A stretch of 64,000 nucleotides of DNA from Pseudomonas brassicacearum. Lineage in GTDB: Bacteria; Pseudomonadota; Gammaproteobacteria; Pseudomonadales; Pseudomonadaceae. The position numbers and the translations under genes were made by a program. Shown piece after piece: positions 25,892-36,402 of this stretch; within the stretch, counting starts at the first letter, position 1; the number at the start of each line of letters is the position of its first letter. The notes below the pieces were generated by a model. That model was not told the origin of the DNA. It saw only the letters and a program-made list of their open reading frames with translations, and made no database searches. Location of the stretch: the NCBI RefSeq assembly GCF_000585995.1, contig NZ_CP007410.1:310001-374000 (forward strand). The letters are read 5' to 3'.

Positions 25892-25916
25892 TATGGTGCG
25901 GCACCAGGAGTCGAAT
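25892..25916. mobile_element. Left attachment site (attL) of the island
   Basis: TATGGTGCGGCACCAGGAGT and the following CGAA repeat the 3' end of the tRNA-Thr gene at 36325-36349, with a single base missing (GTGCGGC against GTGCCGGC). The two copies bracket about 10.4 kb carrying a P4-type integrase whose gene lies next to the tRNA copy. This is the classical layout of a tRNA-targeted island. Confidence 0.8.
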
Positions 25917-26052: not shown

Positions 26053-26994
26053 CTAAAACTCGATGGTGTAAGTCCATAAGCGCTTCAATCCACTGCTAGT
26101 TTCCCTGCTGTAAGTTATGCACTCGGGCAACAGCAACGTCACACCCTGACGAGACCTCCCTTCATAAAGCCAATAAAGGGAAAATCCTAGAGTTTGGATT
26201 TTTGTTGAGAGAGGTGATAAGTATATGTTCGCTTCTGTAACATTGCTGTCAATGCCATTTACGATTTTTGAAATGATACCGGCCGTTGTGAACGGATCAT
26301 TTGCGGGGGCGAAATGACGATTGTTTATCCAAGCACTATCGAGCGCTGAACCACCGCCATCCGATGCTCTCAGTGCACTTTGTTGATACATATCCGGGCT
26401 AAGAGACGGAAATGAAAAAATCGGATAAATTACCGCCCCTTCTTTGTTGTCGGCAACTTCACCAATTAATTTGTGATCATACCCTACGTTAATTATTAAG
26501 TGATCTTGACCACTTTTGTTTCCATACATTCCTCTAACCGGACGGGGCACTCCAGTGGTGGCCGTGCTAAAAGATGTGTCCTCCTGCTTGGTATAGTACA
26601 TAGGCTCGGAGTATAGGGCTGTGAATTCTTTCACACCCATAAAGGCCAGTTTTGCAGTTAAAAATATTAATACATGCCGCATGAACCCCGTAGTATCGAT
26701 ACAAATCTGCTTATCCGTGACGTCACCAATTTCCTCTAGAATAGCATTTACTTGAGCGATTTCATTATGATCATCAGGGCACACCTTTGGATTTTCGTCT
26801 GGATATTCCAACGGTAGGTACTGATACTCTGGATGTATCAGCCAGATTTTTTTCTCTGACCGCACTTCAGCGAAGACCTTTCCAACTCGATAGCTCGAAT
26901 TGTATGCAGAAACAAATATGTCGAACTTTTGAAGTTCTTCCGGGATTCTATCGGTACGAATCGGGCGCCTGTAAAATAGTGAATAGTCAATCAT
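26053..26994 (-). CDS. Unknown alpha/beta protein, last gene of the island operon
   Basis: The product has 313 aa and no signal peptide or membrane helix. I do not recognise a named family. The N-terminus looks like the start of a Rossmann-like fold (FDIFVSAYNSSYRVGKVF), and a second strand-helix unit is ICIDTTGFMRHVLIFLTAKL. LIINVGYDHKLIGEVADN starts the C-terminal half. YLSPLSTKIQTLGFSLYWLY lies near the end and recalls ends I associate with conflict-system proteins. Its ATG follows the ATPase stop codon with no gap (TAAATG), so the two are made together. A sensor or adaptor for the ATPase is a guess. The DNA is AT-rich. Confidence 0.7.
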   Translation of the reverse strand: MIDYSLFYRRPIRTDRIPEELQKFDIFVSAYNSSYRVGKVFAEVRSEKKIWLIHPEYQYLPLEYPDENPKVCPDDHNEIAQVNAILEEIGDVTDKQICIDTTGFMRHVLIFLTAKLAFMGVKEFTALYSEPMYYTKQEDTSFSTATTGVPRPVRGMYGNKSGQDHLIINVGYDHKLIGEVADNKEGAVIYPIFSFPSLSPDMYQQSALRASDGGGSALDSAWINNRHFAPANDPFTTAGIISKIVNGIDSNVTEANIYLSPLSTKIQTLGFSLYWLYEGRSRQGVTLLLPECITYSRETSSGLKRLWTYTIEF

Positions 26995-29025
26995 TTAGAA
27001 TAAAGCTCCCTGAGGAGTGTCATCCACGGCTGCTTTGGAAATAGTATTCCATTTTTGCTCTAGGCGTTTTAAGAGTATGTCAAAGTCCTCAGAGCCTTGG
27101 GCATCAAAAACCGCCGAAAGAAGTTCTTTATTTAGGCTTATATCTCCTCTTCTCGAAATGGGGAGCGACCATTTAGGAGATAGGAGAGGATTAAGCTGAA
27201 TTTTTCGATTAAGCTTCTGGCTGTTTCTATCTGGACGCCCATCCGTCATCTCAAAAACAAGCGAGTAGTTCAACGCATTTTGCAGTACTTTTTTTGCTCT
27301 AGCTGTTAAGTCATCGTCTGAGAAGCTAAAAGCAAGAGGAGAAACTTCAGGTATATTTATCGAAAAACGTGCGGTTCGAAGAATAGAAGCTAAGCGACTA
27401 ATTGCCGCTAAAGCTATATCTGAGTCCTGACCAAAATTGGTATCTGACTCATACATGAAACGGGCGGCATCGGACGCAGCCTCGGTTTGCAGTTCCAAAG
27501 ATAGTTTCTGGCCGGATACAAAGTCCACGCCCCGGAATGTAGCTATGTCATACGCTTTGCCTAGAATAATTAGCAGATTTCTAGGATTGCCTGAAGCCAT
27601 TTTTACGAAGTTTTCAAATCCCGCGTACAACACTCCTCTACCAGAGGGCGCCTCTTTACAGATTTGAGCAAATAGATCGGAAGCGTAATGGCCGTATGCA
27701 TTCGAGTAATAATTTTTTGTCCGGGTTTCAGGGTTTATATATGAGCGAGCGTCAACTTGAATACTTTCAGCTAAAGCTAGCGGCTGGGCACCTTTCTTAC
27801 ATTTCTTCATAAATAACAATACATTTAGCTTTTGTATTATTAAGGGGAAGTCTTGAGTCAGTAACTCAGCTATTTGTTCGGCGCTTCGTTGAGCCCCTGG
27901 CTTGTCGCTGGTAGCGTTGTAGAGTGCAGAAACGAATGCGTGTACGAATGAACGCTCTGGTGAGGGGCATTTTAGCTTTTCGATGACCTCCGCATAAAAA
28001 TTGCTATTCGGAATATCCTCGAAACAAAGCGCTGGATTAAATACCTGTCCAGTTGTAGTGGGCGAATTTGGTTTCATCGCAATGTTGGCAGATTGTAGTC
28101 TCTTGATTACAAATCTTTTTGCGAAGTCCTGAAATTTTATATCTTCACTTAACAGAATATCGTCAAGAAAGGTCGTCTTGAACTCAGCGCCTTCGCGATT
28201 TTCCTCGCCATCGGCCAGAGTCTTTAACGTCTTGACTGCGTATCGCCGGCCTGTTACTCGAAAGGTTGCTAGAGATTCACCATACCGAATGAGTGAGTTT
28301 ACTACTTGTTGTTGGTGAAGTGAAAAATTCTCTATTTCATCTATCAAATATAATAAAGGTATTTCCGCAAGCTGGGGGTGCCATTTGTGCATTGCCTTAC
28401 TTATAGGAAGGCAGAGAGAGCCGATAGAAAAGGGCGCCTTCAGTTCAAGATTTCCACTAAACGCCGCATTATTTACCGCTTCGTCAATATTTCGGCGCTG
28501 CAATATTACCCAGTTACGAAACTCGTGAATTGTTCGGCATTCGTCAAGTCCGGTTCCGAATAGAGTTGACTTTATTTCATTGAGAAATAAATCGTCATTG
28601 AACTCTGACGCTGTGGATGTCAGCTTTATATCGCACAAAGCTTCTAGAACACCCTCTGCGAGTCTTAGTTCTAAATATACGCCGAAGAGTTGCTGCCAGT
28701 TTATAGAGATGCCAGAGCTAGCTTCAAATCTGGTAGCATCAACACCTGTTGCTCTTAAGAATACTGCAAGAAATTTTTGTCTTTTTAATATCGATATTCC
28801 GCTCTCATTCGGTGAGCGCAATCGAATCACGGGGTAGGAATAGTATCTTAAAAGATGAGTTTTTCCCGTGCCTTTCCCACCGAGTATGAACTTGGAAACT
28901 CTAGACTTGGGCTCGATAATGGTATTAATTATCTCAGGTGTGCCCAACTCCGTCCAAAGGGAATTGATCTGCTTGTCAGTGAAGTCTGACGCACGAGCCA
29001 GAGTAAAAGGATTTTCTGTGGCCAT
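26995..29025 (-). CDS. Large AAA/ORC-CDC6-like ATPase of a putative defence system
   Basis: The product has 676 aa. Walker A is GGKGTGKT at residues 49-56 and Walker B is LLYLIDEIENF at 224-234. The start NPFTLARASDFTDKQINSLW and the block after Walker B (QQQVVNSLIRYGESLATFRV, then GRRYAVKT) fit the ORC-CDC6-like ATPases that I recall from surveys of bacterial conflict systems. The remaining 400 residues are helical with no motif I can name. Such ATPases may load or sense DNA. It lies 18 bases after the phosphoribosyltransferase-like gene and abuts the next gene. Family naming is from memory; the P-loop ATPase call itself is safe. Confidence 0.85.
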   Translation of the reverse strand: MATENPFTLARASDFTDKQINSLWTELGTPEIINTIIEPKSRVSKFILGGKGTGKTHLLRYYSYPVIRLRSPNESGISILKRQKFLAVFLRATGVDATRFEASSGISINWQQLFGVYLELRLAEGVLEALCDIKLTSTASEFNDDLFLNEIKSTLFGTGLDECRTIHEFRNWVILQRRNIDEAVNNAAFSGNLELKAPFSIGSLCLPISKAMHKWHPQLAEIPLLYLIDEIENFSLHQQQVVNSLIRYGESLATFRVTGRRYAVKTLKTLADGEENREGAEFKTTFLDDILLSEDIKFQDFAKRFVIKRLQSANIAMKPNSPTTTGQVFNPALCFEDIPNSNFYAEVIEKLKCPSPERSFVHAFVSALYNATSDKPGAQRSAEQIAELLTQDFPLIIQKLNVLLFMKKCKKGAQPLALAESIQVDARSYINPETRTKNYYSNAYGHYASDLFAQICKEAPSGRGVLYAGFENFVKMASGNPRNLLIILGKAYDIATFRGVDFVSGQKLSLELQTEAASDAARFMYESDTNFGQDSDIALAAISRLASILRTARFSINIPEVSPLAFSFSDDDLTARAKKVLQNALNYSLVFEMTDGRPDRNSQKLNRKIQLNPLLSPKWSLPISRRGDISLNKELLSAVFDAQGSEDFDILLKRLEQKWNTISKAAVDDTPQGALF

Positions 29026-29043
29026 TTGAGTCCGCCCTTAACG

Positions 29044-29994
29044 TTACTGTTTATGGTAGCGCACGAATGCAGGTGCCCATGGTATTTGTCCACTTACTGC
29101 CCAGAATATCGGTGGAACGTTATCAGGTGTATTGTGTGAGAAACTTATTAATAACTGCCCATTCTTATAACCGAACGGATGATTCGGCCACAGTTTTTTT
29201 CCATAATCTTCAGTAAGATCGAACATTTTTTGTCTATCAAACCAGGGAGGACTTGTCGAAAAATAGCGCGAGTCGGCGTCGAAAGCCTTAAACGAGTTGT
29301 CGAGCTCGAAAAGACACATCGCTTTTCCATCAAATAGCTTCGACTCGTTTAACTTGGATAAACCTGCAGAAGTAGCGAACAGCGACATAAATCGTATGTC
29401 GATCGATGGGTTAGTGGCTTTTATACCACTGAGATACGGCGTTAGATATTCGCTAGCTTGTGTCCCAGACCCAACGATGTCATCAAAAAAGACGAGGCGA
29501 GTTATTTTCTTTTCGCGTATATCATAGAGAATCTCGCTTCTGTCTCGGCTCACTTGATAGGTTAAAGCGGCAGCAAGATCTACAAATAAGTCTCTGGATA
29601 AGTAATTGACTTGTCTGAAGTAATAAAGCAAATGGGCGCCGCTCTCTGACGGATTGCCTACACCGATGAATCGAGTGCTATTCAACTCGAGTGTGTAAGC
29701 ATTATCAATAATCCGGTGATCATGCGTGCCGTTAAAATTTCGGCGAATTCTTTGCCGCATAGGAGAGTAGAAGTGGTCTCGGTAAAGAGACTTTAACATT
29801 TCCCTCACTAGCCGTTTTCCAAAGTACATATATCTGGAGATTGCAAAGATCGCGTAAAGCTGTTCCTCTGATTTTTCGAGAAAGCTTCCATCAAAATTAT
29901 TGAGCCAAGCTTCGATTTCAGCCCAGGTCACCTCGCTATCCCAAGCGTGATTGATTAAGGTGCGAATTTTTGACTCTAGTAAAATCTTTTCCAT
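29044..29994 (-). CDS. Phosphoribosyltransferase-like protein (PRTase-CE type)
   Basis: The product is 316 aa from MEKILLESKI. The frame can be extended by 12 residues into the methyltransferase end, but GAGAG before the shorter start favours 29994. The PRPP-loop motif is clear: VFFDDIVGSGTQ at residues about 168-179, preceded by GVGNPSESGAHLLYYFRQVN. The C-terminus has FSHNTPDNVPPIFW and WAPAFVRYHK, which I recall from the PRTase-CE conflict-system family. It is not a purine or pyrimidine salvage enzyme. A nucleotide- or NAD-directed effector role is possible but unproven. Confidence 0.82.
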   Translation of the reverse strand: MEKILLESKIRTLINHAWDSEVTWAEIEAWLNNFDGSFLEKSEEQLYAIFAISRYMYFGKRLVREMLKSLYRDHFYSPMRQRIRRNFNGTHDHRIIDNAYTLELNSTRFIGVGNPSESGAHLLYYFRQVNYLSRDLFVDLAAALTYQVSRDRSEILYDIREKKITRLVFFDDIVGSGTQASEYLTPYLSGIKATNPSIDIRFMSLFATSAGLSKLNESKLFDGKAMCLFELDNSFKAFDADSRYFSTSPPWFDRQKMFDLTEDYGKKLWPNHPFGYKNGQLLISFSHNTPDNVPPIFWAVSGQIPWAPAFVRYHKQ

Positions 29995-30007
29995 GATTGA
30001 AAGGCTC

Positions 30008-31462
30008 TCACTTTGAGAAGACCAGAACACTTTCTCTTGAGATGACAGATGCGGTTTTATTTCGCTTTGTCATCAATCCCCGAGATTTTATATGATCGAT
30101 TAAGCTTAGCTCTAATTTTAATCCCAAGGAAGATAGGGTTTGGATGGTGAACTCATCATTCCTCAAGACCTCTTCACATACCTGGTTGTTTCCAGTTACT
30201 AGGACGATATGGCCACCTTTTTGGGTGACTCTTGCCATCTCTGTCAGAGCCTGCTTCATTTCGAAAAGATATTGCCGAGTAATAAATGAACGTAGTTCAT
30301 TTCGAGCGTTGATCTTTATCAAAAGATCCTCGAATGTGTCCGGGAGCTCACCCTCGTACAACTTTTTTCTGATTGCAGGTGCGTGCTCTCGACCGATGGA
30401 TTTATCTTCCAATGTAGTAAGCTTTGCTGGCTCGACAAAACCAAGCCAATTCAATGAAATACTTGACGCGCGGATATATTTTTGCGCGCTACCATAGGGG
30501 GGCGATGTGACTATAAGCGGGACTTGGGAACTGCTGTCCTGCAGGAAATCACTGCTAGAGAGATTTCTCGCGTCGTTACTTATTATCTGTGCAGATTGTC
30601 GACTTGGAAGCGCAAAATTTGCCGCGGTTACACGGTCAATATTTGAAAGCGATACTTTTACAAATTCTCCCAGAGGCGATGCTTCTTCTATCCAAGTAAG
30701 TCGAGAGTTTATTCTAGCGTTCGTCACATCGCTAAATGTTGGCCTAGTTTTCAAACGTACAGGTACCGAAATGGCTGGATCAGCATTACTAAAGCGTCTA
30801 GCAGTTACCGAGAAGCAAACTCTAAAAAAGTCTCTAATTTCGACTTCTTCGATATCCATTACGGCCCGTAGTATTAACTCTAGCGCTTTCTTTCTCTCTG
30901 AAGAATACCAGAGATGGCTATTTACTATGGCGATTTCAGGTGCGGACTTATATCGTTTGCACTTGCGCGCGATTTGCTGCAAGACGTCTGTCAAATATGC
31001 GCTGTCGTAGTTTTTGGTTTTGACTTTTGTGATGAGCAATGCAAGTGGGTTTGCATCTGCTACATAAGGTAAACATCCTGCTAGCGAAGCCTCCAATGCA
31101 ACGGTTCCAGAACCGCAGAAAGGATCTAATACCACTTTTTCTTGCTGAAAAAAAACAGACGACCGAATAAAAAAGTTAGCGATATGCGGGATTAGCTTCG
31201 CTGGGTATGGATGAATTTGATGTGTAAACTGATCGCCGAGCTTTACCCAATCGACGAGAGACCTAAAATCTACTTCGAGAGGAGTCCCGGTTAGTTGGAA
31301 ATCGTCCTTTAGGGACATATAGATCGCTGAAGAGTCTAGCGGCGCTTCCCCGGACGTAGATATTGAAGAATTTAGACTCTCCTCTATGGCCAAGACTGAA
31401 TGTAATGTGCCCAATGTATTGCCTCTGAGTTCTAAAAACGCAACCTTGCGGGGATTATACAT
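30008..31462 (-). CDS. SAM-dependent DNA methyltransferase (N4/N6 type)
   Basis: The product has 484 aa. Motif I is VLDPFCGSGTVALEA at residues about 111-125, and the catalytic motif IV is VTSPPYGSAQKYI at about 318-330. With I before IV and about 200 residues between, the target-recognition part probably lies in the middle. TSPPY is typical of N4-cytosine enzymes and also occurs in N6-adenine enzymes. QFTHQIHPYPAKLIPHIANF is a further block of this class. No restriction enzyme gene follows. Instead the phosphoribosyltransferase and ATPase genes do, 13 bases downstream, so it likely marks self DNA for that system. No strong ribosome site is visible at the start. Confidence 0.88.
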   Translation of the reverse strand: MYNPRKVAFLELRGNTLGTLHSVLAIEESLNSSISTSGEAPLDSSAIYMSLKDDFQLTGTPLEVDFRSLVDWVKLGDQFTHQIHPYPAKLIPHIANFFIRSSVFFQQEKVVLDPFCGSGTVALEASLAGCLPYVADANPLALLITKVKTKNYDSAYLTDVLQQIARKCKRYKSAPEIAIVNSHLWYSSERKKALELILRAVMDIEEVEIRDFFRVCFSVTARRFSNADPAISVPVRLKTRPTFSDVTNARINSRLTWIEEASPLGEFVKVSLSNIDRVTAANFALPSRQSAQIISNDARNLSSSDFLQDSSSQVPLIVTSPPYGSAQKYIRASSISLNWLGFVEPAKLTTLEDKSIGREHAPAIRKKLYEGELPDTFEDLLIKINARNELRSFITRQYLFEMKQALTEMARVTQKGGHIVLVTGNNQVCEEVLRNDEFTIQTLSSLGLKLELSLIDHIKSRGLMTKRNKTASVISRESVLVFSK

Positions 31463-31553: not shown

Positions 31554-31886
31554 TTATCTTGTGTTTCGAATTCTGTCCTGGCTTGAATATTTGGAGGTGT
31601 GTTGTTCTTTCTTCCGGGCTGGAGTCGAGGGTTGTTTGCGTCTTTGAATAATTAAGTTTATTGTTAATTGGTAATAGTAAGCTGTTGAGGTCGCTTTGCT
31701 TTTTAGTTGTGTGTCAATAAACCAATCCAGATGTTTTAGCTTCCATGTCCAAGGGTTGTTTTTATGCCAGCGTTTGGATATTGCGATTTGAATTATTTTT
31801 GCTTGGTTTATTTGCCGTTTGCGTGTGGCTTGTGACCCCTTTAGAACCCCGGCGAGGAATATTTCTATACTATATGGGGCGTTCAT
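31554..31886 (-). CDS. Small basic protein resembling a tyrosine-recombinase core-binding domain
   Basis: The product has 110 aa and is very basic. The middle (WTWKLKHLDWFIDTQLKSKA, then STAYYYQLTINLIIQRR) looks like the helical SAM-like DNA-binding domain of tyrosine recombinases without any catalytic domain. Its ATG overlaps the stop of the larger integrase gene by four bases (31883-31886), so the two are coupled and may form a split recombinase. It could also be an excision factor. The function is inferred from place and character. Confidence 0.65.
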   Translation of the reverse strand: MNAPYSIEIFLAGVLKGSQATRKRQINQAKIIQIAISKRWHKNNPWTWKLKHLDWFIDTQLKSKATSTAYYYQLTINLIIQRRKQPSTPARKKEQHTSKYSSQDRIRNTR

Positions 31887-32863
31887 GCTACGCCTCCAAT
31901 ATATGACGAAACTACATCCGTACGTCTGTGGCCAAGTTCGTAACTGATTATTTTTCGAGCTTCACGATCTTGGTTTTTTTCCAGGTGAAAGTTATTTTCG
32001 GAATTAATTGGGGCTGGACGAAGCGTGATTTGCTTGTAGCGTTCGCATGCATAAGCCGCGCGTAATTCGTGGAAGCCTTTCAAACCATGATATTTAAGAA
32101 ATTTTCGGGCGGGGCGAACGCAACCCTGCAGAAAGTCTCGGTAGTTTTCATCGGGAGATAAAAGGTTCTTGCTGCCTTGAGGCGAAACACTTTGGGCAAA
32201 GGTGAGTGCGTTGAGGATGGAATCATCTACCGCGACCCAGCGAGGGGCCGATGCACCTGAGCGCCCACCTTTTGTTCCGTCCTGGATGTTGATTCTACCA
32301 ATATGTCTAGCTTCACGTGTCAGGCGTGGTATGTCCGCCAAAATCGCCTCACGCAACCGCATACCGGTAGCTCTAGCCAGCTTGGTTATCGCTGCCGCGC
32401 GTAGCTGTCCTGCTTTGCAAAGAACGCTCACGATTTGCTTCACCTGATCGCGGTCTTGGCCTTGAGGTATTTTGGTGCGAACACTGGTGCGCCGTTCGCC
32501 TAGCGCTTTGCTTGGACTCGGAACCCTCACACCCTGATCACCGCGAAGCGCTTCTAGTGTTCGGTTGACGCTAGACAATCGGTTTTGCGCGGTCGCGATG
32601 GCGAGCGCGCCAAGCTCAACTTGGTTTCGGAGATGGCTGGCGTAGTTCATTAGCGTCTGCCGATCTATCTGTCGAGCATCGTTGAATCCAGGTCCATCGT
32701 CTGATCGGCACCATCGCACAAACGCCTGCCAGCGATCACTGTGTGCTTTGACCGTGCCGTAATGCCCGTCGCCAAATAGATCTCGCAATGCCTGCGGCCC
32801 GGCATAACTTAGCTGCCGTCCATAGCCAAAATTCCGCCCATCCCGTCTACCGACCAACGCCAT
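31883..32863 (-). CDS. Tyrosine-type integrase of ICE type (Integrase_1-like)
   Basis: The product is 326 aa from MALVGRRDGR, preceded by GAGAGGAG seven bases upstream. A TTG six bases earlier gives a slightly longer frame. Residues about 40-115 form the helical DNA-binding part. The catalytic set is visible: Arg in ATGMRLREAIL, His and Arg in GFHELRAAYACERY, and His with Tyr in LGHRRTDVVSSYIGG. This type is usual in Pseudomonas integrative conjugative elements, away from the end integrase, so its presence suggests this island descends from a larger ICE. The target site is unknown. Confidence 0.85.
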   Translation of the reverse strand: MALVGRRDGRNFGYGRQLSYAGPQALRDLFGDGHYGTVKAHSDRWQAFVRWCRSDDGPGFNDARQIDRQTLMNYASHLRNQVELGALAIATAQNRLSSVNRTLEALRGDQGVRVPSPSKALGERRTSVRTKIPQGQDRDQVKQIVSVLCKAGQLRAAAITKLARATGMRLREAILADIPRLTREARHIGRINIQDGTKGGRSGASAPRWVAVDDSILNALTFAQSVSPQGSKNLLSPDENYRDFLQGCVRPARKFLKYHGLKGFHELRAAYACERYKQITLRPAPINSENNFHLEKNQDREARKIISYELGHRRTDVVSSYIGGVA

Positions 32864-33770
32864 GATCAAACTCCTCTCGAAGCCAAACGTTTGAAGTCTT
32901 TCCCCACGTCATCCCGCCAAGAATGTTGAGTGTTATCAGGGATCGAGGCCCCTGCGACCTGTGAGGGTTGTCCACTAACGCAGGACTGGCGGCTCCTTAC
33001 GGCCGGGAGCTTGGGCATCTCATGATCTGGCCTCCTGAACACTTCCGAAGAAGTGGGCGGGTAGAGGCTGCATTGGCTGACGAGACTAATGCCGCGAGAT
33101 CCTGATTCGGGTGAAGGCAGTGAAGCGATGACCGGGGCATGCCTGACTGTCAGTCAGGTGCAGTCCATTCCCTGGGCTGCGGCACCATCATCGGCATCGC
33201 TGTTGCTGGTGACTTCGGTGTTTGTCACGCCGATTGTCACGAGGGGAAATGCCGCAATGCCTTGTACGAGTTGGGCTGCAGCAGCGGTAGGAGCGCCCGT
33301 CTCTTTCCGGGAGAAAGAGACGGGCGCAGGTTGGCGCAGTGAAATGGCCAAGCGGAAAGGTTGCTGCAGGGCAGCTGGGTAGGGGGATGTATTTGCCGCA
33401 ATGGCAACGATCTGAAGTAGGCATCCATCACTCGGTGAGTGACCGTGCGAGCCGCCGGACGCTAATCGCACTTTGGGAGAACCACCACGGTGTGGCGTAG
33501 CCTTAAAGGTTCTGGCTACCTGGGTTGCTGTCAACGACAGCGCTTTGCCCGATCCTTTCTACGCCTGTGGATAATTTGGGTCAAGGCTCGAATTTTCAGG
33601 AGTTCTGCGGCGGTGGATGAAATGATCCACCGGTGGAAATCTGTGGTTTTCCACAGACAGTTGCGTGGGTTTTAGATTTTTTAAGTGAGGTCCATCCAAA
33701 CAGGGCGGCTTTGCAGCCCTGTTTGGATGGACCCGCGTGGACAAGCGGATCACTGAGATATAAAGACCGA
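32864..33770. other. Hairpin-rich gene-free region of the island
   Basis: No frame is convincing over about 900 bases. The stretch instead holds perfect hairpins: CACTTC-CGAA-GAAGTG (33040-33055), CCTGACT-GTC-AGTCAGG (33142-33158), a 15-bp stem with loop CGGGA (33293-33327), CGGTGGAT...ATCCACCG (33611-33632), CTGTGG-TTTT-CCACAG (33641-33656) and an 18-bp stem (33689-33706 with 33716-33733). TGTGGATAA at 33566-33574 is a perfect DnaA box. A transfer or replication origin or a structured RNA is possible. Confidence 0.55.
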
Positions 33771-34010
33771 GCGCTTACTCGGTTGCGCCACGTTTTGCTT
33801 TTAGGCGAGTGACGTTCGCGCCGGTCTGGTTCGCGAATTCGTGTGGAGTGACGCGTTTCTGTTGGTTGGCCGAGCTCCACCAGTTCTGTGTACGTTTGCG
33901 CTCGTTGTGGATTTGCCGTTCAATCACCTATTCTGATCGCGCGTCTATGCGTCGCAACGAGTTGTTAATGATGGTTTCAGGGGCGGGCTTCAGGAAGTGG
34001 AATCGCTTAT
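33771..34010 (-). pseudogene. Broken remnant of a P4-type integrase 3' end
   Basis: GCTTACTCGGTTGCGCCACG and the following 90 bases repeat, with scattered changes, the 3' end of the intact integrase gene at 34829-34930. Further blocks (CCACCAGTTC, CGTTGTGGAT-like text, and AACGAGTTGTTAATGATGGT to about 34005) match positions near 34945, 35017-35045 and 35150-35195 of that gene. The long stretches between them are deleted. It is thus an eroded second copy, left by an older tandem insertion or by recombination between related islands. Confidence 0.75.
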
Positions 34011-34117
34011 GAAGAGAAATTGAGTTTACGCCGACCCCGTCGTTCTAGCAGCTTCTGATCTTGGGCTATCATCGCTTCTGTTGGGACCACTGACAGCATC
34101 CGGACTTGAGAAATAAT

Positions 34118-34756
34118 ATGGATTTAGAACAAGCATTTCACGAGGCAGCTCATGCGGCCGAAGCAGCGGTTACTGCAGCAATGGGGAAATACAAGTCTGG
34201 AAATGTTACCGATGAAGATGATCTTACCGGAGTCTTGATCGGCAGGTTAGATTCTGCGTTTGACCAAAGCTATGGCGGTATTAATTGGTCATCATCTATC
34301 CTGCGTCATCGCAAAGGAATTGCAGCACAGGAGCGCAGGGTTGGAGCTGATATGCTTATTCATGTCTCTCTGAACACACCCGGCCTTACATACTCAAAAG
34401 GAGTTTTGATCCAAGCTAAGCGTGTTGAGCCCAATTCCTTAATGAGTGTAGCTGAGCATAACGAGTTGACGGCTCAATGCGGAAAAATGCTTGCAGTCTC
34501 TCCTGCGTCTTTTGTTTTTGACTACGCGAAAACCGGAATGCGGTGCGCTTCAGCAAATAGGATCTTTGGGTCTAATACGCGCGAGTTGCACTCCGCTTGC
34601 AATCTGACCCCATATCGGTTCTTTCTAGAACTCTTTAGATGTACGATTGGTGACCAAAAAATAGATTCAGCAATAGTTGATAAATTGAATGTACCTGAGG
34701 GAATACATCTAACTGGTACGGTCGAATCACCTCGTCAGCGGAGAAGGATGCAATAG
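34118..34756 (+). CDS. Hypothetical island protein with PD-(D/E)XK nuclease-like motif
   Basis: The product is 212 aa from the ATG at 34118; a TTG four codons upstream is possible. VGADMLIHV followed by KGVLIQAKRVEP resembles the D...(E/Q)xK core of PD-(D/E)XK nucleases such as Mrr. LRHRKGIAAQERRVGADM and FVFDYAKTGMRCASAN are further conserved-looking blocks. I recall similar proteins on Pseudomonas ICEs without a function. It is the only plus-strand gene of the island and lies between the broken and the intact integrase copies. It could be a restriction-like defence nuclease. Confidence 0.6.
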   Translation: MDLEQAFHEAAHAAEAAVTAAMGKYKSGNVTDEDDLTGVLIGRLDSAFDQSYGGINWSSSILRHRKGIAAQERRVGADMLIHVSLNTPGLTYSKGVLIQAKRVEPNSLMSVAEHNELTAQCGKMLAVSPASFVFDYAKTGMRCASANRIFGSNTRELHSACNLTPYRFFLELFRCTIGDQKIDSAIVDKLNVPEGIHLTGTVESPRQRRRMQ

Positions 34757-34831
34757 CATTCTGAGTAGCTGGAAGCGACGCAGTCAGTACCCTTGCGCGC
34801 AGGATGTGGTGTATAGCGGAAGGGTCTGTGC

Positions 34832-36154
34832 TTACTCAGTTGCGCCACGTTTTGCTTTGTAGGCGAGTGACGTTCGCTCCGCTCTGGTTCGCGAATTCGT
34901 GTGGAGTGACATGCTCTGTCGGTTGGCCTCCAGGTACCGGCTCCACCAGTTCATGATCAGCCTGCGCTCCTCTATGAACTCGGCCTTGTGGATGTAAGCG
35001 GCACGGACGTTGTTGCGTTCCTTGTGGCTCATCTGCCTTTCAATGGCGGTCTCGGACCACAGTCCTGACTCGATCAGTGCGCTGCAGGCCATCGAACGAA
35101 ACCCATGCCCGCAGATATCGGTTTTGGTGTCGTATCCCATCGTCCGAAGCGCGTTGTTCACGGTATTTTCGGACATGGGCTTCCAGGGTTTGGCATCGCC
35201 TGCAAACACCAGGTCGAATTTGCCGGTGAGGGCGTGGATCTGTTCAAGCAGGGTCACGGCTTGCGGCGATAAGGGTACAAGATGGATATCCCCTGCCATC
35301 TTCGTACCCCTTGTGGAAAAGGGTACTCCCTCCAGCGCTGGCCGAGTGTCTGGGATTTCCCAGGTGCCGCGCTTGAGGTCGAACTCGCTCCAGCGTGCGA
35401 AACGCAGCTCGCTGGATCGTACAAACACATGCAGCGACAGCATGACCGTCAGCCGTGTAAGTGTCCGGCCTTTGTAAGTGTCGATCCGTTCCTGTAGTTC
35501 AGGCAGTCGCGATAAGGGTAGAGCGGGACGATGTACCACCCGCGGGGCTTTGATCAAGCCTTCGAGGTCGTAAGCAGGGTTTGCAGTGATAAGCCGGAGG
35601 CGCTTTGCCTCGCGCATAATGCTCTGTAGGTAGTTTTGTACCCTTAAAGCAACGTCTATCGTTCCGCGCTTCTTGATTGCTTCCAAGGGCTGCATCAGGT
35701 CATGGGTGTCTAAGTCGACAATGGCGCTTGCGCCGATCAGCGGGAATACGTGGGTTTTGAGGCGGCTCATCACTGTCTTGGAATGGCCTGGTGCCCACTT
35801 GGCCGACATTTCCGTATGCCAGTCGAGCGCAACGCTTTCAAAGGTTCTGCCTTTGATTACGGCTACCGCCTTGGCTTGGTGCTTGGTCTCTATAGGATCA
35901 ACGCCATCCGCCAGCATTCGCTTGACTTCCAAGCGCTTGCGGCGCGCATCGGCGAGGCCAATGACGGGGTAGTTGCCGAACGAGGTCAGTCCTTCCCGTC
36001 CGTCAGGTTTGACGTAACGGAGTCGCCAGCCTTTGCGGCCATTGGGTTGGACTAGGAGGTAGAGGCCATCGCCGTCGAAAAGCTTGTAGGCGCGGTCTGT
36101 AGGTTTTGCCAAGCGGCAAGCTGCGTCGGAGAGCGGAGCTGTGGTGCGCGACAT
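34832..36154 (-). CDS. P4-type tyrosine integrase of the island
   Basis: The product has 440 aa. The N-terminal arm-binding domain (DUF4102 type) is seen in LSDAACRLAKPTDRAYKLFD and GLYLLVQPNGRKGWRLRY. The catalytic residues are Arg in VRSSELRFARWSEF, His and Arg in CGHGFRSMACSALIE, and His and Tyr in QMSHKERNNVRAAYIH. It lies about 170 bases inside tRNA-Thr and points away from it, as usual for tRNA-targeted islands. It very probably drove the insertion at 36327. A decayed copy of its 3' end lies about 1 kb downstream. Confidence 0.93.
   Translation of the reverse strand: MSRTTAPLSDAACRLAKPTDRAYKLFDGDGLYLLVQPNGRKGWRLRYVKPDGREGLTSFGNYPVIGLADARRKRLEVKRMLADGVDPIETKHQAKAVAVIKGRTFESVALDWHTEMSAKWAPGHSKTVMSRLKTHVFPLIGASAIVDLDTHDLMQPLEAIKKRGTIDVALRVQNYLQSIMREAKRLRLITANPAYDLEGLIKAPRVVHRPALPLSRLPELQERIDTYKGRTLTRLTVMLSLHVFVRSSELRFARWSEFDLKRGTWEIPDTRPALEGVPFSTRGTKMAGDIHLVPLSPQAVTLLEQIHALTGKFDLVFAGDAKPWKPMSENTVNNALRTMGYDTKTDICGHGFRSMACSALIESGLWSETAIERQMSHKERNNVRAAYIHKAEFIEERRLIMNWWSRYLEANRQSMSLHTNSRTRAERTSLAYKAKRGATE

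Positions 36155-36326: not shown

Positions 36327-36402
<76 letters not shown>

Follow-up and report, generated by a model that had tools for sequence, protein, structure and literature searches.

The 64,000-nucleotide stretch of the Pseudomonas brassicacearum genome considered here (NCBI RefSeq assembly GCF_000585995.1, contig NZ_CP007410.1, positions 310,001 to 374,000; hereafter, the window) contains a compact cassette of four genes. These encode a predicted DNA methyltransferase (MTase), a phosphoribosyltransferase (PRTase) of the PRTase-CE family, an AAA ATPase of the ORC-CDC6-like family (hereafter, the ORC protein) and a protein of the CARF superfamily belonging to PADLOC class CARF6 (Table 1). 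Judged by sequence comparison, the ORC-like ATPase and the CARF6 protein form the constant core of this unit, the gene preceding the core encodes an exchangeable enzyme, here a PRTase-CE, a predicted DNA methyltransferase completes the unit in the window, and the whole is carried by an integrase element at a tRNA-Thr gene. A preliminary description of the window had proposed a four-gene minus-strand operon with gaps of 13, 18 and 0 bases in an AT-rich tRNA island, and these points are borne out. The listing of open reading frames (ORFs) returns the genes from 31462 to 26053 with these same gaps; the GC content is 0.42–0.43 in 2-kb steps across 26–32 kb, compared to 0.52–0.66 in steps clear of 25–33 kb; and the island contains a tRNA-Thr(TGT), a 17-bp exact direct repeat and two tyrosine integrases. 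In the genome itself (6.65 Mb, a single contig), one ORC-family match and one match to the CARF6 profile are found.

Table 1. The four-gene cassette and the element that carries it, in window coordinates
Feature	Position	Strand	Basis or remark
Gene 1, DNA methyltransferase, 484 aa	30008..31462	-	PF01555 and PF01170 over cut-off; PADLOC MTase_II 2.9e-41
Gene 2, PRTase-CE, predicted effector, 316 aa	29044..29994	-	PF24390 8.9e-64; PADLOC PRTase_III-A 4.8e-30
Gene 3, ORC-CDC6-like AAA ATPase, 676 aa	26995..29025	-	PF24389 2.3e-125
Gene 4, CARF-superfamily protein, PADLOC class CARF6, 313 aa	26053..26994	-	PDLC01914 7.8e-139, full length
tRNA-Thr (TGT), integration site	36327..36402	-	ARAGORN
Left att-like site, 17-bp copy of tRNA-Thr 3' part	25899..25915		exact direct repeat
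Right att-like site within tRNA-Thr	36333..36349		exact direct repeat
Integrase adjoining the tRNA (Arm-DNA-bind_3, Phage_int_M, Phage_integrase)	34832..36154	-	
Second tyrosine recombinase	31883..32869	-	PF12835; homologues in the G378 (L059/L118) and G653 (L073) elements
110-aa ORF	31554..31886	-	homologues beside the second recombinase in G378 and G653

All five motifs named in the preliminary description (DPFCGSG, TSPPY, VFFDDIVGSGT, GGKGTGKT and LIDEIENF) are present, and the Pfam hidden Markov models return PRTase-CE for gene 2 and ORC-CDC6-like for gene 3, as had been anticipated, and N6_N4_Mtase for gene 1 (3.5e-10). In the methyltransferase, motif I (DPFCGSGT) is followed by motif IV (TSPPY), and residues D113, P114, F115, G117, G119, T120 and S320–Y323 are unchanged in 31 out of 31 sequences (30 loci and the window), the set to which the residue conservation of the other three proteins refers as well. 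A hypervariable target domain at residues 241–320 was considered; this part is less alike than most of the protein (58 and 55% to L002, 38 and 48% to L003), residues 361–400 are low also (60 and 45% to L002 and L003) and so are the first 40 residues. As other segments score low too, the idea is not pressed. The PRTase-CE protein matches PF24390 over positions 1–253 of 253 (216 bits against a cut-off of 27) and has FFDDIVGSGT as its phosphoribosyl pyrophosphate (PRPP) loop, with D171, D172 and G177 invariant. Its start was placed at the ATG giving 316 residues, which aligns with the start of the closest relative in the alignment (MEKILLESK and MEKKILESK); the GTG start called by the tool at 30030 would overlap gene 1. 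The ORC protein matches PF24389 over positions 1–571 of 571 (420 bits, cut-off 27) and contains a Walker A motif (GGKGTGKT), a Walker B motif (LIDEIEN) and a GNPR motif, with K55, T56, D229, E232 and R482 invariant.

The 313-residue product of gene 4 had been described as belonging to no known family. It carries no Pfam or NCBIfam name, but is in fact a CARF6 protein, as the match to PDLC01914 spans its whole length and a DxTG-type motif is present (D100, T102 and G103 invariant). The sequence IDxTGFMR is taken to be its CARF motif, from a reading of the alignments against CARF signatures. Five further PADLOC CARF6 models match the protein (2.5e-16 to 1.4e-3), and in divergent ORC-linked CARF6 members there are weak matches, at best 9.5e-6, to models of CARF1, CARF3, CARF8 and Csx1. 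Comparison of the two halves of the CARF6 alignment with hhalign gave a short match only (P 0.014, probability 3%), at most suggestive of an internal duplication. Since the motif residues are unchanged across all four proteins, the full-length copies are predicted to be active. Protein database searches at E 0.001 returned 548 relatives for gene 4 and 319 for gene 3. Among solved structures, a sequence search found no relative of the CARF6 protein at E 10, none of the methyltransferase at 0.01 and no credible one for the PRTase (best 0.16) or the ORC protein (best 0.78). Three NCBIfam matches fell short of their cut-offs and were rejected: DS32_1 (1.1e-3; 18 bits, cut-off 250), ATPase_Sll1717 (18 bits, cut-off 75) and bfi2 (0.13; 12 bits, cut-off 350).

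A search profile built from 23 ORC proteins was run on species-representative genomes, a search limited to ORC relatives keeping one of two peptide words, and yielded 29 loci. In these 29 chromosomal or metagenome-assembled genome (MAG) loci, analysed with iterated profiles, the PRTase adjoins the ORC gene in every case, and both the methyltransferase and the CARF6 gene in 28. The order MTase-PRTase-ORC-CARF6 is constant, and the two absences (L026, L027) lie at the ends of the available sequence. All four genes are likewise present in eight out of eight plasmid loci, with broken genes in three. Neighbourhood conservation had been put forward as a check on the four-gene proposal, which was to fall if the genes did not co-occur or belonged to housekeeping families; they co-occur in a fixed order and are not of housekeeping families. 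The records are named as Pseudomonadota, Bacteroidota, Verrucomicrobia, Chlorobiota, Nitrospirae, Bryobacterales, Poribacteria and a Heimdallarchaeota MAG; several, including the last, are short MAG contigs for which the taxon is possibly misassigned. All six pairwise matrices of gene distances also agree (r 0.789–0.912, highest for ORC-CARF6; 0 of 2000 permutations each). This test covered the window and 30 of 38 loci, after dropping those without four full-length genes (L013, L015, L025, L026, L027, L036, L037, L038). In the wider collection described below, the ORC-CARF6 distances correlate with r 0.950 over 66 loci and the ORC-PRTase distances with r 0.930 over 54 (0 of 1000 permutations).

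Loci with other partners were collected by means of the ORC family model PF24389, which is exceeded over its cut-off in 17 of 298 genomes of the genus and 14 of 398 genomes of the phylum. Neighbourhoods were examined for 16 of the 17 genus matches (the remaining one being the genome of the window itself) and, besides this genome, for eight of the 14 phylum matches, leaving out four weak ones and G771, likely a near-copy of G916 in view of identical coordinates and an almost equal score. Plasmid records were taken from four match lists (3 of 7, 1 of 2, 3 of 149 and 8 of 17). Four weak genus matches (L071–L074, 28–34 bits) have no CARF6 partner by the CARF profiles and were not counted as members.

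The gene in front of the ORC-CARF6 core turns out to be replaceable, and so does the methyltransferase. One genus locus (L059) has the cassette type of the window. In ten loci, PRTase-ORC-CARF6 is accompanied by an N6-type methylase (L060–L063, L065, L066, L084–L086, L091), which lies before or after the core and on the opposite strand in L065, L066 and L086, and in one (L068) by a C5 methylase. In six loci the PRTase gives way to an HD-CE protein (L067, L087, L088, L090, L092, L094), with a C5 methylase adjoining in the first five, and in three to a calcineurin phosphoesterase (L064, L089, L093); two of these last loci have a Dam-type D12 methylase, and none was seen in the third. Three further loci (L069, L070, L097) have a protein-kinase domain on the N-terminus of the ORC protein; in L070 and L097 a PADLOC model of this architecture (PDLC01925, CARF6--CARF_STK_AAA) covers nearly the whole single chain, which is matched by ORC-CDC6-like too, and a C5-type methylase match lies within a few kb. 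Across the loci, methylases of four classes are thus exchanged (alpha-order, N6, C5 and D12). Motif residues are kept in the replacing enzymes: H107-D108 and D191 are among the HD-CE residues unchanged in 6 loci, and D20, H22, D68, N105-H106, H254 and H256 of the calcineurin enzyme are unchanged in 3 loci. The HD-CE protein of L067 (9252–10247) weakly matches a PADLOC Cas10 model (8.5e-4, positions 5–82), presumably via its HD domain. The partner labels sit on few branches of a 58-row ORC tree, with 4 changes of effector and 5 of MTase label. On a tree of 66 rows, computed with a simpler model and with the MTase-less labels merged, 4 changes account for the 5 states of MTase class, the minimum, and the effector label takes 4 compared to a minimum of 3.

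A gene for the FAD-dependent thymidylate synthase ThyX lies near the cassette in 11 loci (L014, L021, L033–L039, L087, L090). It occurs with both PRTase and HD-CE types, and its position and strand vary. Plasmid records with a close ThyX (E 1e-70) number 21, in 9 of which the ORC gene was found; in one of the remaining records ThyX shares an island with genes for TIR and dGTPase proteins. The association may hint at thymidylate pools as a target.

The cassette is mobile in more than one setting. The 17-base stretch from the 3' part of the tRNA gene recurs once in the window, 137 bases past the point where gene 4 ends, and this repeat pair delimits an element of 10.4 kb (approximately 25.9–36.35 kb) which comprises the four-gene cassette, the 110-residue ORF, the second recombinase and the Arm-DNA-bind_3-type integrase. 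Like elements are found at tRNA-Thr(TGT) in three more genomes of the genus, namely G378 (L059/L118), G525 (L061) and G653 (L073), and the far copy of the 17-base word is seen in G378 and G525. The second recombinase of the G378 element, whose first integrase is a fragment, is 70% identical to that of the window, compared to 41, 39, 32 and 37% for the four cassette proteins. The G525 element contains a cassette variant with an N6-type methylase, and the cargo of the G653 element is made up of an N6 methylase, an ATPase remotely like ORC and an unnamed protein. As like elements carry diverged or different cassettes, their cargo is exchangeable. The G653 locus (L073, 6703–10523) has the same integrase, recombinase and 110-residue ORF; its ATPase has a weak zinc-ribbon match, and its cargo, including a 294-residue protein without a family, is possibly another system. 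Within the window, repeats of 29, 54 and 30 nucleotides (97, 94 and 73% identity) occur in the same order at 33773–33903 and 34830–34969, probably as a remnant of the 3' end of the integrase gene, which suggests stacked integrations. A plus-strand ORF of 216 residues in the island (34106–34756) has no Pfam match at E 0.01.

On plasmids, relatives of the ORC protein of L062 are found in 149 records, 130 of them from Klebsiella; the Klebsiella record examined (L084) has the arrangement N6 MTase-PRTase-ORC-CARF6. This type of cassette occurs in 4 of 5426 Escherichia coli genomes, always on plasmids and in strains named as C600 and J53 derivatives. Of the 12 annotated plasmid records first examined, 5 (L034, L036, L038, L039, L088) have named defence genes (TIR, SIR2, ThiF/multiubiquitin, AbiEii) in the sequence around the cassette, a count that includes two near-copy pairs and has no background rate for comparison. 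A search of 50,697 phage records gave no match to the ORC protein of the window, and no relative was found in viral contigs by a search sensitive to close relatives only.

Taken together, a defence role is likely, and with slightly better than even confidence we read the unit as a mobile, modular immune cassette in which the ORC protein and the CARF protein sense and gate, the PRTase-CE is a swappable effector and self DNA is probably marked by the methylase; we infer the defence role, the ligand and the chemistry of the effector alike. ORC-type ATPases oligomerize on DNA, which points to a DNA-sensing role for the ORC protein. The methyltransferase would modify host DNA. The ORC-like ATPase may scan or load on DNA and undergo an ATP switch on meeting unmodified or actively replicating foreign DNA, and the CARF protein, which is predicted to bind a nucleotide-like ligand, would set the threshold. 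The assembled ATPase would then release or activate the PRTase-CE, which may act on a nucleotide or nucleic acid through PRPP chemistry and in this way halt either phage replication or the cell. The least certain steps of this scheme are self-marking by methylation and the abortive outcome.

The division into a sensing and gating core and an effector slot is judged most likely from the constant core, the fused parts, the exchange in the slot and the probable PRTase effectors of other systems. PRTases are probable effectors in retrons (PMC9122126, PMC12548924), and DprA-PRTase gives protection from T7 and lambda, with the PRTase as probable effector; the mode of action of PRTase effectors is described as unknown (PMC9122126). 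That HD, calcineurin and PRTase enzymes share one slot suggests a target among nucleotides or nucleic acids. The preliminary description had offered two roles here, a PRTase acting on a nucleotide or a 313-residue protein transducing the signal. The first fits, as an effector role, the slot exchange and the effectors of retrons and DprA-PRTase, and the second fits the CARF identity of gene 4. As for its ligand, what CARF domains bind is predicted to be nucleotide-like (PMC4012209). No messenger synthase (Cas10 or CD-NTase) was found among the four genes, the CD-NTase search being confined to these. The only Cas10 candidate in the genome (the sole PF22335 match) is a 400-residue GGEEF protein of GGDEF type and was rejected, the E. 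coli control matching too. As the cassette has no synthase and the genome search turned up no Cas10, a type III cyclic oligoadenylate would not be the expected ligand.

Several observations weigh against this reading. A gene is broken in five loci (L013, L025, L036–L038), and the CARF6 profile is rare, matching only the genome of the window among 369 genomes of the class. The kinase matches (31.3, 28.2 and 24.6 bits) stay below the Pfam cut-off of 31.7, even though the PADLOC model is named STK. The calcineurin group needs 2 changes on the ORC tree, the deep order of which is unsure because long branches meet and the quick trees have no bootstraps. The PRTase, present in 56 of 66 loci, shows distances that follow those of the ORC protein, so that it could be an integral enzyme and not a plug-in effector. 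Furthermore, no methylase was found in L069 and none adjoins the cassette in L094, and in 11 out of 11 loci of one branch (L095, L096, L098, L119–L126) PRTase-ORC-CARF6 occurs without a match to four MTase profiles. The methylase as a self-mark, proposed in the preliminary description, is not supported as a general rule, since these relatives keep the core with no methylase seen by the four profiles; they are the strongest evidence that methylation is not a universal gate.

The 11 methylase-less loci form one side of a branch (100*) on the ORC tree of 66 rows. They share a protein of about 640 residues (11/11), together with a PfkB kinase (9/11) and NADAR (6/11). The N-terminus of the large protein carries a sugar-isomerase (SIS) domain, with no more than weak profile matches to solved structures (3hba 4e-4, 2aml 8e-4), and a HAD-IIB phosphatase is found in 11/11 at E 0.01, the fully examined member lying below the NCBIfam cut-off. 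In L120 and L126, parts of a second ORC/CARF or PRTase/ORC set lie alongside. That sugar-phosphate and N-glycosidic enzymes take the place of the methylase in this branch is the most striking lead of the analysis. A bolder idea, which we consider rather improbable as yet, is CARF immunity without a cyclic-oligonucleotide synthase, in which the core of an ORC protein and probably tandem CARF6 would read a messenger or a base or sugar mark made by N-glycosidic and sugar-phosphate chemistry (PRTase-CE and, in one branch, SIS-HAD, PfkB and NADAR). If true, the methylase-less branch would have a sugar-based mark or signal instead of a DNA methylase, and self-marking and signalling would be two uses of one chemistry.

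The alternative that survives best, unlikely as we judge it to be, is that PRTase-CE makes a nucleotide-like messenger, or consumes it as the HD and calcineurin enzymes of the slot would, that the CARF protein reads it and that the ORC ATPase executes the response. Phosphodiesterases are common among HD and calcineurin enzymes, the four genes include no further messenger enzyme, and the sugar and nucleoside set of the methylase-less branch is consistent with such chemistry, as is the predicted binding of nucleotide-like ligands by CARF domains (PMC4012209). However, a slot for a synthase is not expected to take hydrolases, the ORC protein has no recognized killing domain, and PRTases are probable effectors in retrons and DprA-PRTase without any CARF protein (PMC9122126, PMC12548924).

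With a somewhat smaller chance still, the cassette could be an unusual restriction-modification system in which the ORC protein guides the slot enzyme to unmethylated foreign DNA without suicide; the HD and calcineurin enzymes would be nucleases and the PRTase a base- or sugar-modifying restriction enzyme. A DNA methylase of varying class accompanies most loci examined, and the calcineurin enzyme of L064 matches a PADLOC model labelled 'Effector, Endonuclease' at 9.3e-9; HD folds include DNases, and ATPase-driven restriction is well known. Against this, no restriction-endonuclease family is matched in the four genes, a novel kind of nuclease being conceivable, and the 11 loci of the methylase-less branch would lack their modification enzyme. 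A nucleotide-sensing CARF protein is not known to belong to the logic of restriction-modification. Finally, that the ORC-like ATPase and its partners serve the replication or maintenance of the mobile element, timed by the methylase, is very improbable: it would fit the likeness to ORC/CDC6, a faint DnaA match (0.049) and carriage by an integrative element and plasmids, but the plasmids have replication genes of their own, with repC or repB/repC next to the cassette, many chromosomal contigs carry it, the recombinase and cassette identities compared above are those of exchangeable cargo, and phage records contain no match to the ORC protein of the window.

Compared to known systems, the preferred reading of an immune cassette with a swappable effector unites parts that have been named before. 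A putative methyltransferase of the restriction-modification kind is present and no cognate endonuclease was found with it; no synthase of type III CRISPR or CBASS is present among the four genes. No reverse transcriptase or DprA match was found among the four genes, and retron non-coding RNA was not searched for; the PRTase effector family is common to gene 2, retron type III-A and DprA-PRTase (PMC12548924, PMC9122126), whereas the partners of gene 2 are an ATPase and a CARF protein. BREX and the DUF499-centred BREX-related systems have a DNA methylase and a STAND or ORC-Cdc6-type ATPase in common with the cassette, which contains a CARF protein and a PRTase instead of their remaining parts (PMC12839542); no PglZ, BrxC, DUF499 or helicase family is matched among the four genes. 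MADS, the methylation-associated defence system, combines a methylase with an ATPase as the cassette does. Its PADLOC models match weakly (gene 1 mad2 at 1.5e-6, gene 3 mad8 at 0.014 and the kinase-ORC protein of L069 mad6 at 9.8e-10). The mad2 match is far weaker than those of gene 1 to other methylase models, the mad8 match is marginal, and no further mad gene is among the PADLOC matches listed for the four proteins. Also close are the kinase-AAA-CARF fusions described in 2014 (PMC4012209), with kinase, AAA+ ATPase and CARF in one chain as in L070 and L097; the window differs in having separate genes, a PRTase replacing the kinase and an added DNA methylase.

Genes 2 and 3 are full-length members of the Pfam families PRTase-CE and ORC-CDC6-like, which with HD-CE bear consecutive accessions (PF24389, PF24390 and PF24391), suggesting one earlier computational description; the names say nothing about mechanism and leave out both gene 4 and the unit as a whole. 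Gene 4 is a full-length member of the CARF6 class (PADLOC PDLC01910-01925), the naming of which we attribute to the classification of Makarova 2020. Proteins adjoining an ORC-CDC6-like gene account for the best matches to nine different CARF6 models, and a fusion for that to a tenth. The four genes include no Cas10 or CD-NTase, the genome showed no Cas10, and the chain of gene 4 has no effector domain. No description of the four-gene unit is among the literature matches listed, most journals lying outside the search, so that an earlier description is possible. With its parts already named, the unit is best regarded as a likely form of DNA-modification-linked, CARF-regulated immunity and not as categorically new. 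The chief known role of CARF proteins is to read the cyclic oligoadenylates of type III CRISPR. In this unit, mobile on a tRNA-Thr element here and on plasmids elsewhere, CARF proteins of one class go together with an ORC/CDC6-like ATPase, with interchangeable enzymes in a single slot and, in most loci examined, with DNA methylation. The unit contains no cyclase, and its four genes make both the ligand of non-CRISPR CARF proteins and the action of PRTase effectors testable.

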